Positions 38,248 to 53,203 of a DNA stretch of 64,000 nucleotides are shown here, piece by piece (positions within the stretch are counted from its first letter, which is position 1; each line of letters begins with the position of its first letter). The stretch is taken from NCBI GenBank assembly GCA_026707585.1, contig JAPOWQ010000025.1, positions 62,001 to 126,000 on the forward strand. Reading direction: 5' to 3'. Below the pieces are notes generated by a model that was given only the letters and a program-made list of their open reading frames with translations, had not been told where the DNA came from and ran no database searches. The stretch comes from Chloroflexota bacterium (lineage in GTDB: Bacteria; Chloroflexota; UBA11872). Made by a program: the position numbers and the translations under genes.

Positions 38248-40725
38248 ATGAACCAGGTACTCACCAGATTCAGTTCGCTGGTCACGGCTCGCCCCTGGAT
38301 CACCCTTCTCGTCATAGTCATCCTTACCATCGCCCTCGGTGCCGGTGGCGCCGTTCGCGCTCCGCTCCCATCAACGGCGGAAACGCTGCCTGACGACAGC
38401 CCTATCGCCGACGCAATGGACGAGATCAACGAGCTGTTCGGCGACCACGGTGAAATCAGTGCCTCGACTCTGCTTTTCCGGGGCGATGCGCTTACGCCGT
38501 CCGGGCTGGTCCAAATGGACGCCCTGCTCAATGACATAGCCAGCGACCCGGGTGTGCAGCAACTGCTGGCCCCCGAGAATCCGGTCTTTTCGCCCGCCAC
38601 GCTGATCAAGTTCGCGCTTCAGGTCCAGAGCCTTGAAGCGGTCACGCAGGCCCAGATCGATGCGGTGCGCGTACTTCCGGAAGTCCAGCCGCTCCTCGCC
38701 CTCATGACTGGAACTGACGCGGACGGCACCAAGATTGCGATCGGCAACATTCGCCTGCTCGATACCGGCGACGAGCGAATTGCGAACGCTGAACGGACGA
38801 TCAACGCATTGGCTGCCGCCTCGGACGGACCGCTGCAGGCAACCAGCGTGTCGTTCTATGTCATTGAAGACGCCTACAAGGCCGGTATCGAGGAGGGCAT
38901 GCTGCCGCTGATCGGGGTGGCTTTCCTGCTCATTGCGCTGCTCCTGCTGCTCTTCACGCGCGCGCTGTCGGATATGTGGCTGACGCTCGCCGGCCTCCTC
39001 ACCTCCATCATCTGGATCATCGGCGCCGAAGGCTGGCTGGGCCCGAACGCGCTGGGTCTGATCGGCCCACCGAACTCGCTGACCTCACTGGTCCCGATCA
39101 TCGTGATCGGGCTCACGGTGGACTATGCGATCCAGACCATCTCGCATTACCGCGAGCAGCGGGTCGAGGGTCAGGACGTGCTCACGGCCATTCGCCGGGG
39201 CCTCAGCCACGTCACGGTTCCCCTGGTCCTGGCCGCCGTCACCACCATCGTGGGCATGCTGGCCAGCCTGTTCTCCCCAATCGGCATCGTTCGCGACTTC
39301 GGAGTTGTCGCCGGCATTGGTGTCGGCATGAGCCTGATCGTCATGCTGACGCTGGTCCCGGCCAGCCGGGTAATCATTGACCGGCGGCGCGAGGCTCGCG
39401 GCAAGCTGAAGCCCGCCCGCCCCATTGTCAATGCGCTGCCGGGCATCCAGGGATTGGCCGGCGTGATCGGTCGCAGCGTGACCCGCTGGCCCCTGCCGTA
39501 CATCCTCGCCGTGCTCGCGATCACCGTGGGACTGGGGATTGCGGCCCGTGGGCTGAAGTCGGAATTCAGCATCAAGGACATCCTCCCCAGGGGCGGCGCC
39601 GTGCACGCGGACATGGACACCCTTGAGGCGGCCGTCGGCGGCTCGGCCGAGATCACCAGCGTGCTGATCAAGGCCGAGGCGACGCAGACCCGCACCCTCC
39701 TCAATGTGCAGGACCTCACGAACGCCTTTGAAGACGAGACCCGCCGTCCGCCCACCGCGGCAGGTCCCATCCAGGCCTCGTACGAATTGCTGGTGCGTGA
39801 CTGGACCACCCAGAGCGGCCAGCCCGGCGACAAGTACGATCCCGAGATCGCGGCCCTTTTCCAGGAGGCTTCGGCGGGGGTGCGACTCGACCCGCACTTG
39901 ATGCAGGAAGTCCTCGACCGGATTGAGGCCCAGGACCCCGCGCTCTCACGCCTGCTCGTCAACGACCCGCAGGGCATCGACACCATGCTGCTTCAGTTCC
40001 AGAGCTATGGCGGCGATACCCAGGCAACCAAGGTACTGCAGCAGGAAATTGAGGAACTCTGGGCCGGCGACGACGACGCAATTACGGCAACGTCGCAGAG
40101 CATCATCTCGATCACCGTCACCGACTCGATCACCGCGCGCCAGACGGAAGCCATCGCCACCACGGTCGCGGCGGCATTGAGTGTCCTGGCCATCTTCTTC
40201 TGGCTGACGCTTCGCCAGCCGGCGCTGGCGATCGTCGCCGTGGGTCCCATCGTGCTCGTGCTCATCTGCGTGCTTGGAACGATGGCGCTGCTCGGAATCC
40301 CCTACACGATCATTACGTCGATCATCACGGCTCTCTCGATCGGTATCGGCGTTGACTACACCATTCACGTCATCCATAGATACCGGGAGGAATTCGCCCG
40401 CCTGCGCAACCCGGAGGAAGCCGCCGTGCGGACGCTGGCCACCACCGGATCGGCCCTGTTGGGATCGGCGATGACTACGGCCCTCGGCCTGGGCGTACTG
40501 GCGGCGTCGCCCCTGGCCGGGTCGCAGCAGTTCGGCATTACCGCGGCGATCACCATTGCGTACTCGCTGATTGTTGCCGTCGTGTTGGTGCCGCCGGCCA
40601 TGACGATCTGGGGCGCCTACCAGAACATGCGTCTGCGCTCCATGGTCGAACGCGAATGGACCGACCTCGACATCGCCATCGACGACGTGTACCGGCGCCA
40701 CGAAGAGGAACAGGCCTCGGCCTAA
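38248..40725 (+). CDS. RND/MMPL-family transporter (candidate sterol or lipid exporter)
   Basis: An 825-residue protein with the two-fold RND plan: one helix (ARPWITLLVIVILTIALGAG), a periplasmic domain, six helices (from GMLPLIGVAFLLIALLLLLF), a second single helix near residue 415, a second periplasmic domain and six more helices. Repeated motifs VIGLTVDYAIQTISHYRE and SIGIGVDYTIHVIHRYRE hold the TM4/TM10 Asp used for proton coupling. It belongs with the hydrophobe/amphiphile MMPL and HpnN-like exporters rather than AcrB. It precedes the sterol methyltransferase by 190 bases on the same strand; a role in moving sterols, as for BstA or HpnN, is inference. Confidence 0.85.
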   Translation: MNQVLTRFSSLVTARPWITLLVIVILTIALGAGGAVRAPLPSTAETLPDDSPIADAMDEINELFGDHGEISASTLLFRGDALTPSGLVQMDALLNDIASDPGVQQLLAPENPVFSPATLIKFALQVQSLEAVTQAQIDAVRVLPEVQPLLALMTGTDADGTKIAIGNIRLLDTGDERIANAERTINALAAASDGPLQATSVSFYVIEDAYKAGIEEGMLPLIGVAFLLIALLLLLFTRALSDMWLTLAGLLTSIIWIIGAEGWLGPNALGLIGPPNSLTSLVPIIVIGLTVDYAIQTISHYREQRVEGQDVLTAIRRGLSHVTVPLVLAAVTTIVGMLASLFSPIGIVRDFGVVAGIGVGMSLIVMLTLVPASRVIIDRRREARGKLKPARPIVNALPGIQGLAGVIGRSVTRWPLPYILAVLAITVGLGIAARGLKSEFSIKDILPRGGAVHADMDTLEAAVGGSAEITSVLIKAEATQTRTLLNVQDLTNAFEDETRRPPTAAGPIQASYELLVRDWTTQSGQPGDKYDPEIAALFQEASAGVRLDPHLMQEVLDRIEAQDPALSRLLVNDPQGIDTMLLQFQSYGGDTQATKVLQQEIEELWAGDDDAITATSQSIISITVTDSITARQTEAIATTVAAALSVLAIFFWLTLRQPALAIVAVGPIVLVLICVLGTMALLGIPYTIITSIITALSIGIGVDYTIHVIHRYREEFARLRNPEEAAVRTLATTGSALLGSAMTTALGLGVLAASPLAGSQQFGITAAITIAYSLIVAVVLVPPAMTIWGAYQNMRLRSMVEREWTDLDIAIDDVYRRHEEEQASA

Positions 40726-40915: not shown

Positions 40916-41980
40916 ATGCGATTCCCGCTGTCAAGGGAGCTTGCGCAGCTCCGCAAACTATCCAAGGGGCTGAAGGCCGCCTACCGTGGGTCGGATCCGC
41001 AGCGGCGCGTGACGCACTTTGATGGATGGACGCGCAGAGCAGCGGCAGAGGGCGCCGGCGCGGCGGACTACGACCACGCCCAAACCGTCAGGGAGTACTA
41101 CGACCTTTGCAGTGAGTTCATGGTGTTCGGGTGGGGCGCCTCACTCCACTTCGCGCCGCTGTCGCCCCACGAGAGCCTGGAAGAATCCAAGATCCGGCAC
41201 CAGCGACTGATGATTGCCAAGCTGGGATTGTGCAAGGGCATGACGGTGATCGACGTCGGCTGCGGAATCGGCGGCCCCATGCGTCGGGTCGTCCGCGAGG
41301 CTGGCGTCAGAGTCATCGGGGTCAATAGCAGTGAGGTCCAGCTGGACAAGGCGAAAGCGCTAAACGTTGAGGCGGGACTCGACCACATGGTCGACTACCT
41401 GGCGTGCAGCTTCATGGACATGCGCGCCATCGCGGACGACACCTGCGACCGGGCCTATGCAATCGAATCGACCTGCCATGCGCCGGACAAGGCGGGAGCC
41501 TTCGCCGAGATCTACCGCGTGCTGAAGCCCGGCGCCCTCTTCTGGGGACAGGAAATGTGCCTGACGGAGCGGTTCGATCCTGGCGACGACCGGCACCGGG
41601 CCATCAAGCAGGAGCTCATGCACGGCATCGCGCTCAAGGACATCGCGACGATGGATGAGGTGAACCGAGCCCTTGAATCGGCGGGCTTTCAGGTCATCGA
41701 GGGTAGCGACCGGGCCGTTGCGGAGAACAGTCCAACCACTCCCTGGTATCAGCCAATGCTGACCCGGCGGAGCACGCTGGGTAACGCCCTGCGCAGGACG
41801 CCTCTGGGCCGCAAGGCGTTCATCGAGGCATCCCGCCTGGCCGAAGTGTTGCGGGTGTTTCCGAGGGGCTCCGCCGACGTCGTTGGCCTGATGGATCGCA
41901 CCGCCAACGCTTATGTCGACGGCGGCAGGACCGGGATATTTACGCCCTTGTACTGTTTCCTGGCACGCAAGCCTCGCTAG
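40916..41980 (+). CDS. Sterol C-24 methyltransferase (SMT/Erg6) homologue
   Basis: A 354-residue SAM-dependent methyltransferase. Residues 61-80, YYDLCSEFMVFGWGASLHFA, match the sterol-binding region I of plant and fungal SMTs (YEYGWGxSFHFA). Motif I is VIDVGCGIGGPMRRVVREAG (111-130). AYAIESTCHAPDKAGAFAEI with YRVLKPG corresponds to the YAIEATCHAPxxxxCYKEIYRVLKPG block. SPTTPWYQPM and GIFTPLYCFLARKP match the conserved end. SMTs add a methyl to the C-24 double bond of the sterol side chain. An AT-rich segment at about 40830-40875 is a likely promoter. gamma-Tocopherol or CFA-type methyltransferases lack region I, so SMT is favoured. Confidence 0.85.
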   Translation: MRFPLSRELAQLRKLSKGLKAAYRGSDPQRRVTHFDGWTRRAAAEGAGAADYDHAQTVREYYDLCSEFMVFGWGASLHFAPLSPHESLEESKIRHQRLMIAKLGLCKGMTVIDVGCGIGGPMRRVVREAGVRVIGVNSSEVQLDKAKALNVEAGLDHMVDYLACSFMDMRAIADDTCDRAYAIESTCHAPDKAGAFAEIYRVLKPGALFWGQEMCLTERFDPGDDRHRAIKQELMHGIALKDIATMDEVNRALESAGFQVIEGSDRAVAENSPTTPWYQPMLTRRSTLGNALRRTPLGRKAFIEASRLAEVLRVFPRGSADVVGLMDRTANAYVDGGRTGIFTPLYCFLARKPR

Positions 41981-42019: not shown

Positions 42020-44047
42020 TCAGACGTTGAGTGCGCGCCGCTGTTCGGCAATGCGGAACTTCAGCTTCTTACTCGGCTTCATCGAGGGCAGCGGGTTGAA
42101 CCCGAGCTTGAAGTTCGGCGGGGACACTTCGAGCGTGAAGTGATGCGCCACCAGGAGCACGTTGACGGCCAACTGCAGTTCCATCCACCCCACGCCAAGG
42201 CACCGGTGCGTACCCAGCCCGTACGGGGCATACCCGGAACTGCGATGCTCGTTGCGCGGAGGCAGATAGCGGTCGATATCGAATTTCAAGGGGTCGGGGA
42301 ACACGTCGCTCATGTAATGCGCGGCCGTCTGGGCAATGTAGACCTGTGACCCGATGGGTATTCGGTAGCCCTCGACCACGCACGTATTCATCACGGTCCG
42401 CAACGACACCGGGACGATCGGGTACACCCGCAAACATTCCATCAGGAATCGGTGCGTGACGTCGATCGCTTGCGGTCTGAAGGCCCCCGCCTCAGGATCG
42501 CCGTCGGCGAACAAGGCGTCGGCTTCGGCACGGATTTCCTTGTAGAGATCCGGCTGCGACGCCATGGCGTACAGCACGAAGCTGAACGCATCGCCAAGGT
42601 AGACGCTGGCAATCAGCGCGGCTGAGAGGACGAAGCGCAGATTCGTCTCCGGGACGAACTGCGGATCGCTGGCGTGCAGGCTCAGCAGGTCATCCGCCAG
42701 GTCCCGCGGACTTCCAGCCCGCTGGGCCGGCGTATGCCCGCTTTGAACCTTCTCCACCAGTTGGTCCAGGATCTTCAGCCGGCGTTTCATGCTCGGCGTC
42801 TTCAACATGAACTTGGGTAGGACTTTCAGTATGTGAACGTTGAGCGCCCGTTCCTTGAAGACCGTCAGGTCGTCAAAGATATCCTGGGAATCAATGCTGA
42901 TCATCAGCGGCGAGAGTTGCGCATTTATCATTCGCCGGCACATGCGCGTGGCGGGGTAGGAATCTCCCACCGTCCAGTCCGCCATATGAGTCCGCGCATC
43001 CTTGTAGACTTGATCCAGTTGCCCCATCAATCTTCCGCGGGAATACGCTGGACCCAACGACTTACGAAGCCGGAAGTGATCCGCGCCGTCCAGGGACGGC
43101 AATACGCCCGAGGCGCCGTAAACCTTCTCGAAGTCTGAAAAATAGTCCTTGGTTCGGAGGTACATGCGCCCGTTCCGATGGACCCAGCGATTCGTCTCAG
43201 AACCAGCCAGGAAGATCATTGGATCCTGAAAGGGAGGGCGGAGCTCGAACACCGGGCCGTATTCTTCGGCCAGATCCGCGAAGAGCGCGGGAAAATTGCC
43301 GCTGCGAAGATTCCGATTAAACACCAACTTGCGCAGCGAGGCAACCGGAATCTTCTTGGTCAAGGCTGAACGTTGAAGCAATGGTCCGGCGAGACTCTCG
43401 GAAACCGCGGCGGCGATGGCCCGGCCGATCAATTCCATGTTGCAAATGAAATTAATGCGCTCCTCATCCTGGTCTTCGAGCTGGAACATGAAGCGAAATA
43501 CATCGCATGTGTTGACCAGGCAGATGATGATGACATCGCGCGGATCAGGAATCTCGTTGTTGAAGATGGCTTTACCGATGCGCGTCCTGACGAATTGAGC
43601 CGCCGTGCCTTCGGTGGGACCGCTTGAGAGTTCAGACTGCCAGGCAGTCCGGGACAGCGTCCAGAATTCACCCTCGTGGTATTCCAGGATCTTGCGCTTG
43701 ACCAGTCGGTCTAGTGTGGAATCTACGATTGATTCCGCACGCGGGGCCAGACGTTCAATCCAGTATTGAGCGTTGCGCTGATCGGAGGCGTCGGCAATAT
43801 CCTTCAGGATCGAGTCGAGGATTGGATTGCCTGTATCTGAGGAGTCCAGGAGAAACAAGGAGTCCATGTCCGTGTCGATACGTGATAAGAGTGAGAGTTC
43901 GGCAAGAACCGCGCCCACGACCGCGCAGTTCAGGTGCCAGCCGGGCACCTGGTAAAAGTAGCCGGACTCCTCATTGAGAAGCATAAGCACGAGCTCGTCG
44001 GACAAGGTTAGCTGCTGGGTTTCGACGGAATCTGAAGTCAGGGTCAT
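42020..44047 (-). CDS. GPP34 (GOLPH3/VPS74-like) domain fused to cytochrome P450
   Basis: A 675-residue fusion. Residues about 10-220 are a GPP34 domain: LTLSDELVLMLLNEESGYFY, VVGAVLAELSLLSRID, LDRLVKRKILEYHEGEFWTL. In eukaryotes this fold binds phosphoinositides at membranes. Residues about 240-675 are a P450: FRLRKSLGPAYSRGRL, K-helix E-C-L-R (537-540), and the haem ligand Cys616 in YGLGTHRCLG, where Tyr replaces the usual Phe. The I-helix (ALIASVYLGDAFSFVLYAM) lacks the standard A-G-x-D-T. It is convergent with the sterol methyltransferase, 39 bases apart. An inverted repeat lies just upstream, and GGGGAG precedes the ATG by eight bases. The substrate is probably a sterol or other terpenoid, by context. 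Confidence 0.82.
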   Translation of the reverse strand: MTLTSDSVETQQLTLSDELVLMLLNEESGYFYQVPGWHLNCAVVGAVLAELSLLSRIDTDMDSLFLLDSSDTGNPILDSILKDIADASDQRNAQYWIERLAPRAESIVDSTLDRLVKRKILEYHEGEFWTLSRTAWQSELSSGPTEGTAAQFVRTRIGKAIFNNEIPDPRDVIIICLVNTCDVFRFMFQLEDQDEERINFICNMELIGRAIAAAVSESLAGPLLQRSALTKKIPVASLRKLVFNRNLRSGNFPALFADLAEEYGPVFELRPPFQDPMIFLAGSETNRWVHRNGRMYLRTKDYFSDFEKVYGASGVLPSLDGADHFRLRKSLGPAYSRGRLMGQLDQVYKDARTHMADWTVGDSYPATRMCRRMINAQLSPLMISIDSQDIFDDLTVFKERALNVHILKVLPKFMLKTPSMKRRLKILDQLVEKVQSGHTPAQRAGSPRDLADDLLSLHASDPQFVPETNLRFVLSAALIASVYLGDAFSFVLYAMASQPDLYKEIRAEADALFADGDPEAGAFRPQAIDVTHRFLMECLRVYPIVPVSLRTVMNTCVVEGYRIPIGSQVYIAQTAAHYMSDVFPDPLKFDIDRYLPPRNEHRSSGYAPYGLGTHRCLGVGWMELQLAVNVLLVAHHFTLEVSPPNFKLGFNPLPSMKPSKKLKFRIAEQRRALNV

Positions 44048-44299: not shown

Positions 44300-45628
44300 G
44301 TGAGGGGGCGTAGAGCGCTGCCAGGCGTGTGGGCCGCTGCGCTGATCGCCGTCATTGCGTTCTGGTGGGGCGCGTACGTGGCACCACAGTTGGTGAGCAT
44401 TGCCTTCCCCGGCGTTCTGCCCACGGATCGAATTCCCGCGTGGCTCGATGCCGAGGAGAATGACACGCTGACAAACTCCCTGTCCGCCGCGCTGCTGGCT
44501 GTGGCTGCCGCACTCCTGGCGGCAAACGCTGGCCGCGCATTTCGGGCATCTGCCAGCCGGATCGGCACCACCGGATGGGCCATCCTTGCGGGCGTCACGC
44601 TGCTGGTCTGTATCGCTGAATTAACCGAGGCGCATATCGCCGCGCCTGAAGCTCTTGGGTATGTGGTATTTGGGCGACAGGCGTTGCTGCCTTCGTGGCC
44701 CATCCTGCTAGCTCCGCTGATCGCTGCCTTCGTGGCTCTTATGGTGTTGTTTATGTGGCGAGTCGATCACCCGCCATCGGTTCGTCGGTGGCTTGGCCTG
44801 GGATTCGGCCTCTGGATCATGGTCTTGGCGCACGAGGTGATCCAACCATACGCATTGCTCAGGTTCGGATCGTCACTGCCACGAGTCCTCGAAGAGACAT
44901 TGGAAATAAGCGGCACGATGTGTCTAATCGTTGCCTCCATGGCAACGCACAAGGGCGCGACGCCCGCGCCGCGCTGGCGTAACCCGTTCGTACGATCCGT
45001 GCTGTTGGTTGCGGGCCTGAGCGCAATCGCCGTTGCATATCTCTACCACGCTCCGGTGTTCGACACGCGAGCACATTCGGCGCCTGGGACGTTCCAGATC
45101 ATGCTCCAGGACCAGGGATCGATAACGCAGGAACTCGGTGGGCCCCGGTTTCCGACGGATCGCATCGACGTTCGTATGGCAACGCGGGATCCGAACGGCA
45201 CGTCGACCACGGTGGCCTGGCGCATTCGTAGCGACGATACGCCAATTCGTGAGGGGCATGTGCAGGTCAAGAGTCAACCGCAGCACCTGTCGATGTACCA
45301 GCTGATCTTCGCTCCGCTGATTCAAACCGCGGACTAGGATCTGAGTCTTCAGTTGGTTGCCGAGGCTTCCGAAGGCGCTCACCTGCATATTGGGGCGACC
45401 AAGCTCAACTCCGACGATGGGCTCCGCTTATGGACGAACGGCGACATTCAACCGCCTGGCCACCGCATTGATTTCGTCGTGTTCAGCACGCCCGAGCCGA
45501 CGCAAGCGAAACTTGCCGCGCTGTGGCATGCGGTGTCCGGGGATTGGCGATACCCGGTAACGATGCTTTATTTTGCCGTGAGCCTCGTGCTACTCGTGTT
45601 TACACCGCTGGTTCTCGTGCGCTCCTAA
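44300..45628 (+). pseudogene. Polytopic membrane protein interrupted by an in-frame amber codon
   Basis: One continuous frame of 443 codons containing a single TAG at 45335-45337 (residue 346). Upstream are seven or so hydrophobic helices (GVWAAALIAVIAFWWGAYVA; WPILLAPLIAAFVALMVLFM; WLGLGFGLWIMVLAHEVIQP) and then a beta-rich extracytoplasmic part. After the TAG the same frame continues DLSLQLVAEASEGAHLHIGA and ends with a last membrane helix, YPVTMLYFAVSLVLLVFTPL. The downstream part thus completes the topology. Options are a recent nonsense mutation (one base from GAG, CAG or AAG), a sequencing error, or readthrough. No family recognized. It lies between the P450 and Rieske genes of the sterol region. 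Confidence 0.65.
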
Positions 45629-46031: not shown

Positions 46032-47135
46032 ATGGAATCCCAGGAAGCGGGCGGGCAGGCAGGACTGCGGGTGATGCGACCTGAAGAGGCGACAGCAGCC
46101 CGACGCCGACTACCCTTGAGCAATCGACTGCCGTCCCCATTCCCCGAGGGTTGGTACTTCCTCGCGACCCGCAAGGCCGTGGAGAAGGGCGGGCTGATCC
46201 AAAAGACATGGATGGGCGAGAACATCGTCATCTGGTCCGACGCTGAGGGCCGCATCTGTGTCGCCAAAGCCATCTGCCCCCATCTGGGCGCCGATCTCGG
46301 GCCTGCCGCAGGTGGCCAGATCTGCGAAGGTCGACTTGTCTGCCCGTTCCATGGCTATGAGTTCGACGTCACCGGCCAGTGCGTCGCCACCCCCTTCGCA
46401 CCAGCGCCCAGGACCGCCAAATTGCGAGTCTTCGAAACTCACGACATCCATGGCCTGATCTTCGCCTGGTGGGGTGTCGACGGCCGCCCGCCGCAATGGA
46501 CGCTGCCAACCGAGCCGTTGGAGCAGGACGGCTGGTGCGACTACGAGATCGATACGCTTCGCTTTCCCGGCCATCCCCAGGAGACGACCGAGAACTCGGT
46601 CGACCTGGCCCACCTGCGCTATGTCCACGGCTACGACAACGTCGACCGCCCTGAGCGAATGTCGGTGGATGGCCATCGTCTCCTGAGCAACTTCAACTTC
46701 AGGCGCGTTCGTACGATCGCAAAACTCGCCAGACTGACCTTTAGCGTCTCAGCCAAAACCCACATCTACGGACTCGGCTACTCGTTCGTCGACATCCGCG
46801 AGCACTCCATCGGCATGAACATGCGGCTGTGGGTCCTTGCCACGCCCGTCGACGGCAAGCTCATCGACATGACACTGGTCTCGCAGGTACGCGAGATCCG
46901 AAATCCCAGGCGCCTGTTGGTCGGCCTGGGATTCCTCCCGCCAAAGCTTCGCGCCCCCCTCATCAACAAGTTCATGGCGCTTCAGCAGAGAGAGGATGTG
47001 CTGCAGGACGTGGTCATCTGGGGGCGCAAGCAATACACCAGCCGGCCCCGCCTCTGCCGCTCCGACGGCGAGATCATGCCCTTCCGGTACTACTGCGCGC
47101 AGTTCTATCCCGAACCCGGCAACGGCGCCCCGTAG
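46032..47135 (+). CDS. Rieske non-haem iron oxygenase, Neverland/DAF-36/KshA/SdmA-like
   Basis: A 367-residue oxygenase. The Rieske cluster is bound by C82-x-H84 in ICPHLGADLGP and C104-x-x-H107 in LVCPFHGYEFDVTG. The catalytic iron site is in TTENSVDLAHLRYVHGYDNV (D191, H194, H199). LPSPFPEGWYFLATRKAVEK at the N-terminus and the layout fit the sterol/steroid branch that includes cholesterol 7-desaturase, KshA and the bacterial C-4 demethylase SdmA. An internal ATG at 46074 is an alternative start. A reductase partner is not adjacent. Given the neighbours, a sterol ring (C-4 or C-7) reaction is the leading guess; exact regiochemistry cannot be read. Confidence 0.8.
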   Translation: MESQEAGGQAGLRVMRPEEATAARRRLPLSNRLPSPFPEGWYFLATRKAVEKGGLIQKTWMGENIVIWSDAEGRICVAKAICPHLGADLGPAAGGQICEGRLVCPFHGYEFDVTGQCVATPFAPAPRTAKLRVFETHDIHGLIFAWWGVDGRPPQWTLPTEPLEQDGWCDYEIDTLRFPGHPQETTENSVDLAHLRYVHGYDNVDRPERMSVDGHRLLSNFNFRRVRTIAKLARLTFSVSAKTHIYGLGYSFVDIREHSIGMNMRLWVLATPVDGKLIDMTLVSQVREIRNPRRLLVGLGFLPPKLRAPLINKFMALQQREDVLQDVVIWGRKQYTSRPRLCRSDGEIMPFRYYCAQFYPEPGNGAP

Positions 47136-47179: not shown

Positions 47180-48535
47180 CTACGCCTTCCTGAACCCCAA
47201 GCCGTACATGATGCTCCCGTAGTAGTTGAACGCCCGCCTGGCTTCCGCGTTGCTGAACGGGTAGTCGGCCCCTATCTGCCGCGCCGTGGCCAGGCCGCTG
47301 ACAAAGCAGGTCTCCTGGCTGTTGACCAGCGTGTGCGCCCCGCAGTGCCAGGTTCGCCGCCTGCCCTGGATGAACTGGAACAGGTTGATCAGCAACGCCA
47401 TGTGCTTCACGTCATGCACGATGTGCTGAAACCACCACCGCTTGATGACCTTGGCGTCATCGATGGGACTGACCGCGTTGTAGGTCACCAGGCACGGCTT
47501 GTCCGACCCGCTTGCCCACGGCTGCTGGTTATGCATGATGTACGTGATTTCGTAGTTGTCCGGCCTGGCCCCGTACTGCTCGATGTGGTTGCTCCGCGTC
47601 TCCAGCGGCTTCGCTTCGTTCTCGGGTAACACCGAGGCGTCCCAGTGCACCACGGCATGGTTATGCAGCTCGCTCTCGTAGCGTATCGATGAGAGCATGA
47701 AGCGTTCCAGCATCGTCGGCTTGTCCAAGATCATCAGCGTCTGGTTCGCGTTGCACGCAAGGATCACGTCGTCAAACGTCTCGCGTTCACCGGCCTCGTC
47801 TTCAACCTCCACGTGTGACGCCCGCCGATATACCCTTCGCACAGGTCGGTTGAGATAGATCTTGTCTCGAAAGCCGTCCGTCAGGTTCTCGTAGATGCGG
47901 CGCGTGCCCCGGTCCCATGTCTGCATCGGCGTTGAGCGTTCGATGTCGAAGAATTCCAGGTACCGGCTGAAGAGCGCGGCCGGCATGTCGAACACGTTTG
48001 TCGCCATCAGGAAATTCACGAACATTGGCTTCAGGATCTTGTACCTGAAGTCCCCCGAGAATCCGCCCAGGTTCAGCACCGTCCCCATGCTGATGTAGTT
48101 GAACGGGTTCAGCGCATTTAGCAACTTCGACTGCGAACGCGTCAGCCAGCCAATCCCATGCAGTCGACGCAAGAGTCGCTGGAATTTCCTGATCTCGGGT
48201 TGCAACTGCTCTCGTATGTCGGAGTCGAAGTCATGGGCGTACACGCGGCCCTGGTACTTCACGCTGTAGCTGAACTTGGTGTCGATCAGCTCAATGCCAA
48301 ACGTCTCCATCAACAGCAGGATGTGGTGATAGACCGACGGGATACACGCGGTTACGGAGATGTCAAAAGGAATCGAGCTACCGTCGTCCTGCCGCATGTC
48401 GGCGGTAATCGCGTTGCCGCCAACCTGTGCGTTGGCTTCGAACAGCCGGAAGTCAAAGCGATCGGGATGCCGATGCAGCGCCCAGGCGGCGCCCAGCCCT
48501 GCAATGCCCCCGCCAACAATGGCAATGCGCCTCAG
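47180..48535 (-). CDS. FAD-dependent amine-oxidase-like oxidoreductase, probable CTG start
   Basis: About 451 residues. The Rossmann motif RRIAIVGGGIAGLGAAWALH and the FEANAQVGGNAITADM loop lie upstream of the first ATG (48397), so the true start must be earlier. The frame is open only back to a TAG about 90 bases upstream of 48525 and contains no ATG, GTG or TTG there. A CTG at 48533-48535 follows GGGGGAG at four bases and is the best candidate. The C-terminal FAD motif is CFVSGLATARQIGADYPFSN. It falls in the flavin amine oxidoreductase group (PF01593-like); a desaturase or reductase role on sterols is possible from context only. Confidence 0.75.
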   Translation of the reverse strand: MRRIAIVGGGIAGLGAAWALHRHPDRFDFRLFEANAQVGGNAITADMRQDDGSSIPFDISVTACIPSVYHHILLLMETFGIELIDTKFSYSVKYQGRVYAHDFDSDIREQLQPEIRKFQRLLRRLHGIGWLTRSQSKLLNALNPFNYISMGTVLNLGGFSGDFRYKILKPMFVNFLMATNVFDMPAALFSRYLEFFDIERSTPMQTWDRGTRRIYENLTDGFRDKIYLNRPVRRVYRRASHVEVEDEAGERETFDDVILACNANQTLMILDKPTMLERFMLSSIRYESELHNHAVVHWDASVLPENEAKPLETRSNHIEQYGARPDNYEITYIMHNQQPWASGSDKPCLVTYNAVSPIDDAKVIKRWWFQHIVHDVKHMALLINLFQFIQGRRRTWHCGAHTLVNSQETCFVSGLATARQIGADYPFSNAEARRAFNYYGSIMYGLGFRKA

Positions 48536-50559: not shown

Positions 50560-50799
50560 GCTGCCGTCTCCTCCGGTCGCGCGTCCGCGCAACAAGCATT
50601 TCATCGACCTCCAGCGTATGGCAGGTGGCCTGGTCGGGCCATGCGTTGGCGCAATGCGCGCCGGCGCCGACGGACTCCAACGCTGATCCAGTCTGCCGCC
50701 GAAAGGCCTGGCGAAGACCTCACTGCCGTCGCGTCTGATTGACCGTCTCCCGCCCCATGTCCATACTTACTGCATCGCTGGAGGGCGGGACTTTCAGTC

Positions 50800-51939
50800 A
50801 TGATTGATTGGCTCGGAATCGAACACCTCTTTGAGCTTACCCCGACGGAAGCGGTTCTCGGCTTCTTCACCCCGCTGATTATCTTTGCCGTACTCTTTGT
50901 CGTGCAGCTCATCCTTCCGGGAATCCGCGTTACCGGCTACGTCACTAATCCCGAGACCGGCACACCGCGCAACTACCGGCTCAACGGACTCCTGGTGTAT
51001 GCAATTGCGGTCATCGTCTGGGCGTTCGAGCTCACTGGAATGCCGCGTGAGTGGTTCTATCAGTCCTCCGTCTACGCCGTCGCCGGCGGAACGGTGGTCG
51101 TCGCCATAGCTACCCTCATAGCCGTCTTCAGCCAGCCGAAGGACGAAACCGACAACCCCATTGCCGCGTTCTGGCTCGGGCGCGTCCAGGAACTCTCGTT
51201 CTTGAAGGAGCGCATCGACCTGAAAATGTACTTCTACGTCGTCGGCGGAACCATGTTTTCGCTCAACGCCCTGTCCGCGGCAGCCTGGCACCTGGAGCGC
51301 TTTGGCGAAAACGCCAATCCTGGGGTTTTCCTGGTGGCCGCGTTCTATACGTATTACGTAACGGACTACTTCATCTTTGAACGTGTCCAACTCTATACCT
51401 TTGATGTGATCTACGAGAAGCTCGGCTTCAAGATGTTCTGGGGCGGCCTCATGGTCTACGGCTGGGTCTACATCCTCCCCCTCTGGGGCATGGCCGCGCA
51501 TCCCAGCCCTGGATTCTCCACGGTCTGGACGTACGTCTGGCTCATCGCGGCGGCGGCCGTGTACTTGACCGGGTGGGTGATTTCCCGTGGCGCCAACATG
51601 CAGAAATACACCTTCAAGCGCTGGCCCGATCGCAAGTTCCTTGGGCTCATCCAGCCGGAGTACATCCAGGCCGGCGACCGCAAGATCCTGGTCAACGGCT
51701 TCTGGGGCGCGTCCCGCCACATGAATTACCTCGGCGAGTGGTTCCACTCCTCCGCCATCGCGCTGGCCTTCGGCCACTTCACCAATCTCTGGGCCTGGAC
51801 CTACTTCATCTGGATCGTCACCCTCTTCGTCATCCGCCAGCGCGAGGACGACCACTACTGTGCCCAGAAGTACGGCCCTGAGAAGTGGGCCGAATACCAG
51901 GCCCGCGTCAAATACCGCATCTGCCCCTGGATCTACTGA
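50800..51939 (+). CDS. ERG4/ERG24-family sterol reductase, copy 1
   Basis: A 379-residue membrane protein with eight to ten helices. Family hallmarks are RNYRLNGLLVY (residues 57-67, the YxLNG motif), ERIDLKMYFYVVGG (the IDLKM block), ILVNGFWGASRHMNYLGEWF (296-315, the LLxSGxWGxxRHxNYxGE motif) and DDHYCAQKYGPEKWAEYQAR followed by VKYRICPWIY at the end. These NADPH-dependent enzymes reduce C14, C7 or C24(28) double bonds of sterols (delta14-reductase, DHCR7, ERG4). Which bond is reduced cannot be told from sequence by eye. A paralogue of identical length follows 124 bases later. Confidence 0.88.
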   Translation: MIDWLGIEHLFELTPTEAVLGFFTPLIIFAVLFVVQLILPGIRVTGYVTNPETGTPRNYRLNGLLVYAIAVIVWAFELTGMPREWFYQSSVYAVAGGTVVVAIATLIAVFSQPKDETDNPIAAFWLGRVQELSFLKERIDLKMYFYVVGGTMFSLNALSAAAWHLERFGENANPGVFLVAAFYTYYVTDYFIFERVQLYTFDVIYEKLGFKMFWGGLMVYGWVYILPLWGMAAHPSPGFSTVWTYVWLIAAAAVYLTGWVISRGANMQKYTFKRWPDRKFLGLIQPEYIQAGDRKILVNGFWGASRHMNYLGEWFHSSAIALAFGHFTNLWAWTYFIWIVTLFVIRQREDDHYCAQKYGPEKWAEYQARVKYRICPWIY

Positions 51940-52063
51940 GCCAAGACCTAGTGAGTACCGAAAGGCGTGCCGCCGACCCTGCGAGGAGAGGCTGGCCACT
52001 CATTGACCGCTTCCATCCTCGTCTCCATAATCGCTGCGGCACTGGAAGTTGGGGGAACCGATC

Positions 52064-53203
52064 ATGATTGAATGGCTGGGTATCGAACACCTTTTCGAGC
52101 TTTCCCCCACCGAAGCGATCCTAGGCTTCCTGACTCCGCTCGCAGTCTTCGTTGTGTTCTTCATCGCCCAGGTCGTTCTTCCGGCCCGCCGGGTTCCCGG
52201 CTACGTCATCAATCCTGAGACGGGGCAACCCCGCAACTATCGGCTTAACGGTCTCCTCGTCTTCATCATCGCCATCGTCGTATGGGCGACCGAAGTCACC
52301 GGCATGCCACGCGATTGGTTCTACCGATCCTCGGTCTACGCTGTGGCCGGGGGCACCGTATTCGCAGCGCTCATTGCACTCGTGGCCATGCTCAGCCAAC
52401 CGCGAGGCGAGATCAAGAATCCGCTGCATGCCTTCTGGACCGGCCGCTCCCTCGAGCACTCGCTGATCAATGAACGCTTTGATCTGAAGATGTACCTCTA
52501 CGTCGTCGGCGGCACCATGCTGGTGCTCAATGCCCTCTCAGGCGCCGCGTGGCACTACGAACGCTTCGGTGACAACTTCAATCCCGGCGTCTTTCTGTAC
52601 ACCGCGTTCTTCACGCTCTACATCTTCGACTACTTCATCTTCGAACGCGTCCAGCTCTACACCTACGACCTGATTCACGAAAAGCTCGGCTTCAAGTTGA
52701 TCTGGGGCGGACTCATCATCTACGGCTGGATGTACATCCTCCCGCTCTGGGGCATGGCCGTCTATCCGAACCCCGAGTTCCCGACGGCCTGGACCTACGT
52801 GTGGCTCATCGGAACGGGCCTGCTCCTCGTCTTCGGCTGGTCCATCTCGCGCGGCGGCAACCTGCAGAAATACTGGTTCAAGCGCTGGCCCGACCGCAAG
52901 TTCCTCGGGATCATCGAGCCCGAGTACATCCAGGCCGGCGACCGCAAGATCCTCTGCAGCGGATTCTGGGGCGCGGCCCGCCACTTCAACTACATGGGCG
53001 AAGGATTTGCCTGCTTTGCCATCGGCCTGTCGTTCGGTCACTTCACCAATCTGTGGGCCTGGACCTACTTCATCTTCATCGTCTCGCTGTTCACCTGGCG
53101 ACAATGGGACGACGAGGCGCACTGCGCCGAGAAGTACGGCGAGGAAAAGTGGGCCGAATACAAGGCCCGGGTCAAGTACCGCATCTGCCCCTGGGTCTAC
53201 TGA
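52064..53203 (+). CDS. ERG4/ERG24-family sterol reductase, copy 2
   Basis: A 379-residue close paralogue of the preceding gene: MIEWLGIEHLFELSPTEAIL versus MIDWLGIEHLFELTPTEAVL at the start, and the same RNYRLNG, FDLKMYLYVVGG, GFWGAARHFNYMGEGF and EKWAEYKARVKYRICPWVY motifs. The replacement of H-M-N-Y-L by H-F-N-Y-M beside the invariant Arg-His is in the cofactor/substrate region and could alter specificity. ATG 52064 follows GGGGGA; the leaders before both copies are also alike, indicating a tandem duplication that included the promoter. Confidence 0.88.
   Translation: MIEWLGIEHLFELSPTEAILGFLTPLAVFVVFFIAQVVLPARRVPGYVINPETGQPRNYRLNGLLVFIIAIVVWATEVTGMPRDWFYRSSVYAVAGGTVFAALIALVAMLSQPRGEIKNPLHAFWTGRSLEHSLINERFDLKMYLYVVGGTMLVLNALSGAAWHYERFGDNFNPGVFLYTAFFTLYIFDYFIFERVQLYTYDLIHEKLGFKLIWGGLIIYGWMYILPLWGMAVYPNPEFPTAWTYVWLIGTGLLLVFGWSISRGGNLQKYWFKRWPDRKFLGIIEPEYIQAGDRKILCSGFWGAARHFNYMGEGFACFAIGLSFGHFTNLWAWTYFIFIVSLFTWRQWDDEAHCAEKYGEEKWAEYKARVKYRICPWVY

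Follow-up and report, generated by a model that had tools for sequence, protein, structure and literature searches.

Paired ERG4/ERG24-type reductases as candidate sterol-tailoring enzymes in a Chloroflexota bacterium

The window analysed here, a stretch of 64,000 nucleotides from a Chloroflexota bacterium, carries two neighbouring genes for reductases of the ERG4/ERG24 type, raising the question of why both copies are kept and on what they act. The initial annotation regarded them as duplicates specialised for different double bonds, for example C14, C7 or C24(28), and proposed that, together with a sterol methyltransferase (SMT), they would allow a complete saturated, alkylated sterol to be made. 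The two genes and their leaders are arranged as follows.

50730..50799, + strand: leader of A, sharing 43 of 70 bases with the leader of B
50800..51939, + strand: copy A, ERG4/ERG24-type reductase of 379 residues with RHMNYLGEW; the diverged copy (H205Y, G314W)
51994..52063, + strand: leader of B
52064..53203 (from the ATG), + strand: copy B, ERG4/ERG24-type reductase of 379 residues with RHFNYMGEG; the conservative copy

Both open reading frames are present and intact, in tandem on the + strand with a gap of 124 bases, and their motifs are as annotated. We took the start of copy B at the ATG at 52064; the open reading frame list starts it at a TTG, at 52049. The proteins are 70% identical (267 of 379 residues, ungapped). 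The similarity claimed for the leaders holds at the DNA level, with the 43 matching bases upstream of the ATGs lying in register and ungapped; of the last 45 bases, 26 agree. Among the 63,955 + strand positions of the window, 2 match this well, a count accounted for by the A leader itself and the B leader. The identical length was also correctly noted, but it is nothing special to the pair, since 89 of the 109 relatives kept are likewise 379 residues long. These relatives were drawn from 139 distinct open reading frames by requiring the motif R[HK]x[NH]Y; L024 was restored later, and short rows were excluded from the trees.

Membership in the ERG4/ERG24 family, as first proposed, is borne out by profile and fold. 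The PF01222 (ERG4_ERG24) profile scores 137.4 bits in A and 130.5 bits in B, with a cut-off of 27, and matches all 52 members of the subfamily alignment that was scanned (best E 8e-41). The predicted model of A (pLDDT 87, pTM 0.88) has as its best PDB match the Δ14-sterol reductase MaSR1 (4quv; E 6.7e-16, TM 0.78), which it matches across its whole length (Z 33.7, 352 aligned, rmsd 3.2). The next structural matches of this model are a steroid 5α-reductase (Z 11.3) and an isoprenylcysteine methyltransferase (ICMT; Z 10.8), both with E of about 0.08. The presence of ICMT among these lower matches, along with a weak DUF1295 match in 48 of the 52 members, might suggest that A and B are ICMT/DUF1295-type methyltransferases and not reductases, an identity that the initial annotation had named as fatal to its proposal. 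We rejected this reading as extremely improbable: PF01222 and 4quv lie far ahead, with DUF1295 scoring 29.8 bits in A and ICMT reaching a third or so of the structural score of 4quv.

Residue numbers for MaSR1 were taken from the accessible parts of PMC12489058 and PMC4951196, which give Asn359 and Arg395 as NADPH-site residues (PMC4951196) and Tyr241 and Asp363 as predicted catalytic residues (PMC12489058). Although A and B are only ~30% identical to MaSR1, they share with it the whole-chain fold (model of A), the cofactor residues and the positions of Tyr241 and Asp257. Residues Tyr241, Asp257, Lys319, His357, Arg395 and Asp399 are retained in both copies, and all 31 A and B rows have Asn359 and Arg395. 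The Tyr241 position is Tyr in all 107 subfamily rows, and the Asp363 position is Glu in all 107. We considered this Asp-to-Glu change as a subfamily hallmark and dropped it; the cyclase-operon ERG24 described below has the same Glu, so the change is no sign of a new activity. MaSR1 differs further in its LNPR stretch, which is lost in A and B, and in Arg398, which they do not retain.

A genome scan returned 170 related loci, the best 80 of which are 65-96% identical. The record names of these best 80 span Chloroflexota, Acidobacteriota, Binatota, Latescibacterota, Dadabacteria, Nitrospirota, Nitrospinota, Actinomycetota, Gemmatimonadota and Pseudomonadota, a reach of about ten phyla. In the trees, the 379-residue subfamily is a single clade to which neither MaSR1 nor operon ERG24 nor the ERG4-type genes belong. 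The branches that connect its phyla are short and weakly supported, in keeping with a horizontal spread of the subfamily. Judging from the record names, the window bacterium and the subfamily MAGs are probably sponge-associated; the isolate prefixes RHO and COS would fit Rhopaloeides and Coscinoderma, both named as hosts in the available portion of PMC8163846.

The accessible text of PMC9531527 reports the sponge-symbiont sterol operon ERG24-CYP51-LSS in 115 of 537 MAGs and mentions scattered ERG24 copies; in the portions of the literature available to our search, no paper was found that separates the 379-residue subfamily. By sequence, these reductases appear to be a divergent, previously unseparated subfamily of a known kind of enzyme. 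As far as the available part of that paper goes, operon ERG24 shares with the subfamily PF01222, RHxNYxGE and an occurrence in many symbiont phyla. However, it is 358-379 residues long as read here, shares ~30% identity with A and B, and forms a separate clade with which they do not group; it also co-occurs with an oxidosqualene cyclase, whereas the 379-residue subfamily is mostly without one. Of 73 genomes, 8 have an operon-type ERG24, and these are also the eight with the oxidosqualene-cyclase motif (the locus search behind this type and the 360-residue type below covered 49 of 50 loci, L062 being left out). A third type, found in G019, G027 and G035, has RKxHYTAD (RKxHYTxD), and from this motif we take it to be an ERG4-type C24(28) reductase. 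It too matches PF01222, and in G019 it adjoins an SMT; in contrast to A and B, which both carry RHxNYxGE, it falls in a clade of its own.

The initial annotation had asked whether both copies occur in related genomes, and A and B are both carried by 16 of the 19 sampled genomes of family f1, the others being G002, G003 and G005; in G008, copy B is cut by the contig end. In our careful tree, the f1 A copies (100/100) and B copies (100/99) form separate clades, so the A/B split is older than the two sampled genera. Both copies are under purifying selection: relative to the window copies, dN/dS ranges from 0.067 to 0.137 in A and from 0.051 to 0.103 in B (12 comparisons each), with A exceeding B in all 12. 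There are 34 fixed differences between A and B, of which 7 lie inside 33 positions around Tyr186, Asp202 and Glu313 (p 0.019). Conservation in 95% of 88 other rows holds for 157 sites, and A deviates at two of them, H205Y and G314W, changes at otherwise family-invariant residues that occur in A alone and sit beside active-site residues within the same windows (p 0.011). Both p values are Fisher values that ignore kinship, with windows picked after the alignment had been viewed.

How the pair arose is less clear-cut. The quick trees placed A and B apart, without full support, and our reading that they are not sisters was withdrawn, because an AU test did not reject their sisterhood (p 0.736) and gave a better tree with both together. 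The careful tree also has A and B apart, with no starred branch. A simple local duplication is unproven. The gene pair of family f4 has an independent origin (96/90, starred, careful tree). The proposal of duplicated and specialised reductases is supported by paralogy, by the long retention of both copies and by active-site changes that would fit different specificities.

Position 314 adjoins the predicted catalytic Glu and is Gly in 85 of 107 subfamily rows. The other residues found there are Trp in A (16 rows), Val in the second f4 copy (3), Phe in one G019 copy (1) and Met in two gammaproteobacterial copies (L076 and L102); G142 has one Trp copy and one Gly copy. A pairing of Gly in one copy with a bulky residue in the other is seen in four of ten two-copy lineages (f1, f4, G019 and G142). 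We rejected it as a general rule, as Gly is the residue of both copies read in each of the other six (L095, G110, G133, G145, G148 and G149).

The genes upstream of the pair include several with sterol-related features.

38248..40725, + strand: MMPL transporter with matches to the sterol-sensing domain and to Patched
40916..41980, + strand: methyltransferase with a sterol methyltransferase C-terminal domain (SMT)
42020..44047, - strand: GPP34-cytochrome P450 fusion whose P450 portion has solved CYP51 chains as its closest matches
46032..47135, + strand: Rieske oxygenase with a KshA_C domain (3-ketosteroid 9α-hydroxylase type)
47180..48397, - strand: FAD amine-oxidase-like protein, with a GGGIAGLG motif in the upstream open frame

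The frame of the amine-oxidase-like gene extends upstream through the FAD motif without an ATG, GTG or TTG, so its start is probably a rarer codon. The GPP34-P450 fusion occurs in other phyla at nearly full length and 60-66% identity; a literature search on GPP34 and P450 found no bacterial fusion of that kind. Between the P450 and Rieske genes, 44300-45337 (+) encodes a 345-residue protein with no Pfam or NCBIfam match and no counterpart in the related loci. Most of the neighbourhood genes recur beside the pair in near same-genus relatives, and some recur beside a single reductase gene in Dadabacteria. In most other phyla, the reductase gene lacks the window's sterol neighbours inside the flanks examined, which makes the cluster weaker evidence there.

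The suggestion that a complete saturated, alkylated sterol is made finds no support in the genome. The sole cyclase found carries DVDDTA, which we take to be the hopene-cyclase form, and neither the oxidosqualene-cyclase DNA pattern nor a match to squalene epoxidase (PF08491) was detected in the genome, which is 95.6% complete, a figure at which these gaps might reflect binning loss. We therefore rejected de novo synthesis for this genome, in which neither marker of a sterol producer was detected. Across the 73 genomes, a set that includes G035, whose sole PF01222 match is an ERG4-type fragment, the oxidosqualene-cyclase motif occurs in 8 and an SMT match in 62; no SMT match was found in 10 of the 72 subfamily genomes. 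Among 41 relatives, an SMT match is present in 21 of the 24 whose PF01222 match is strong, versus 1 of the 17 others, kinship being ignored. The window's own genome has two SMT matches, and the second (L164; G000:C25:442-1641) is without sterol neighbours across the 16 kb that were read.

With de novo synthesis unsupported, the remodelling of imported sterols fits better, and it is the most likely interpretation in view of the fold, the conserved residues and the genes present. We think it probable that the cluster is a sterol-tailoring set, in which A and B would serve as NADPH-dependent reductases of a symbiont that produces no sterols and remodels those of its host, diet or neighbours. Such a bacterium would make no sterol nucleus; it would import sterols from these sources and alter them by transport, C24 methylation, oxidation and saturation. 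A and B, probably membrane-embedded and with the MaSR1 fold (as predicted for A), would reduce sterol C=C bonds with NADPH. Copy B may retain the general function of the subfamily, and A may owe its retention to another substrate or double bond, reached by its changes beside the predicted catalytic Tyr186 and Glu313. Points against this reading are the Glu at the Asp363 position throughout the subfamily, though operon ERG24 shares it, the CYP51-like P450, the ten subfamily genomes in which no SMT match turned up and the gene's lack of sterol neighbours in most other phyla. Our best guess for the reduced bond is a ring bond such as Δ7, or a side-chain bond. Of the bonds offered as examples by the initial annotation, C7 falls within this guess; C14 is less likely, because in other genomes the published operon comes with an ERG24 of its own, and C24(28) is less likely, because A and B have RHxNYxGE and not RKxHYTAD and ERG4-type genes are separate in relatives.

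A Δ14 role nevertheless has its own arguments. In a pathway split between symbionts, A and B could act as Δ14 reductases after the cluster's CYP51-like P450, using lanosterol-type intermediates from neighbours with the cyclase operon; such a P450 would leave a Δ14 bond to be reduced, MaSR1, the best structural match, is itself a Δ14 reductase, and in some other genomes, for example L174, L175, L182 and L192, the surroundings of the cyclase operon include relatives of the window's GPP34-P450, SMT, Rieske or amine-oxidase genes. We consider this unlikely, as all eight genomes with operon ERG24 also have a 379-residue gene, the two clades being deeply split at ~30% identity. Somewhat less doubtful, though still not probable, is a division of labour in which one copy is a side-chain reductase (Δ24, Δ24(28) or Δ25) completing the product of the neighbouring SMT and the other a ring reductase. 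The SMT inside the same cluster, the SMT matches in 62 of 73 genomes and the ERG4-type reductase adjoining an SMT in G019 speak for it; however, A and B lack the ERG4-type motif, and of the three genomes with an ERG4-type gene, two (G019 and G027) also have the pair. Rather unlikely, finally, is that the copies share one specificity and are redundant, maintained for dosage or with one decaying. Their 70% identity and identical cofactor residues are what redundancy would predict, but both are intact in the aligned relatives with dN/dS far under 1, and the fixed A-specific changes adjoin the active site.

Returning to the remodelling of imported sterols, we tentatively speculate, at a confidence short of even, that a horizontally shared subfamily lets non-producing sponge symbionts of many phyla rework host sterols, and that its duplicates are repeatedly retuned for new bonds by exchanging the Gly that follows the predicted catalytic Glu for Trp, Val or Phe. 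If true, symbionts would be co-authors of the sponge sterols that serve as fossil biomarkers. Who makes the unusual, C24-alkylated sterols of sponges bears, according to the available part of PMC10070321, on 24-isopropylcholestane as evidence of early animals. Symbiont methyltransferases are already active in vitro, and a reductase subfamily that is widespread in the absence of the cyclase would contribute additional steps, acting on sterols of foreign origin.

Two minor observations concern the margins of the subfamily. The nearest clade, 39-41% identical, is a distinct 360-residue type with RH[VI]NYLGE and Ile or Met at position 314 (L177, L180, L183 and L184), from gammaproteobacterial and acidobacterial records. 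Within the subfamily itself, one copy (L018; G029:C9:929392-930489) has an in-frame TAA, possibly a sign of decay or an assembly error.
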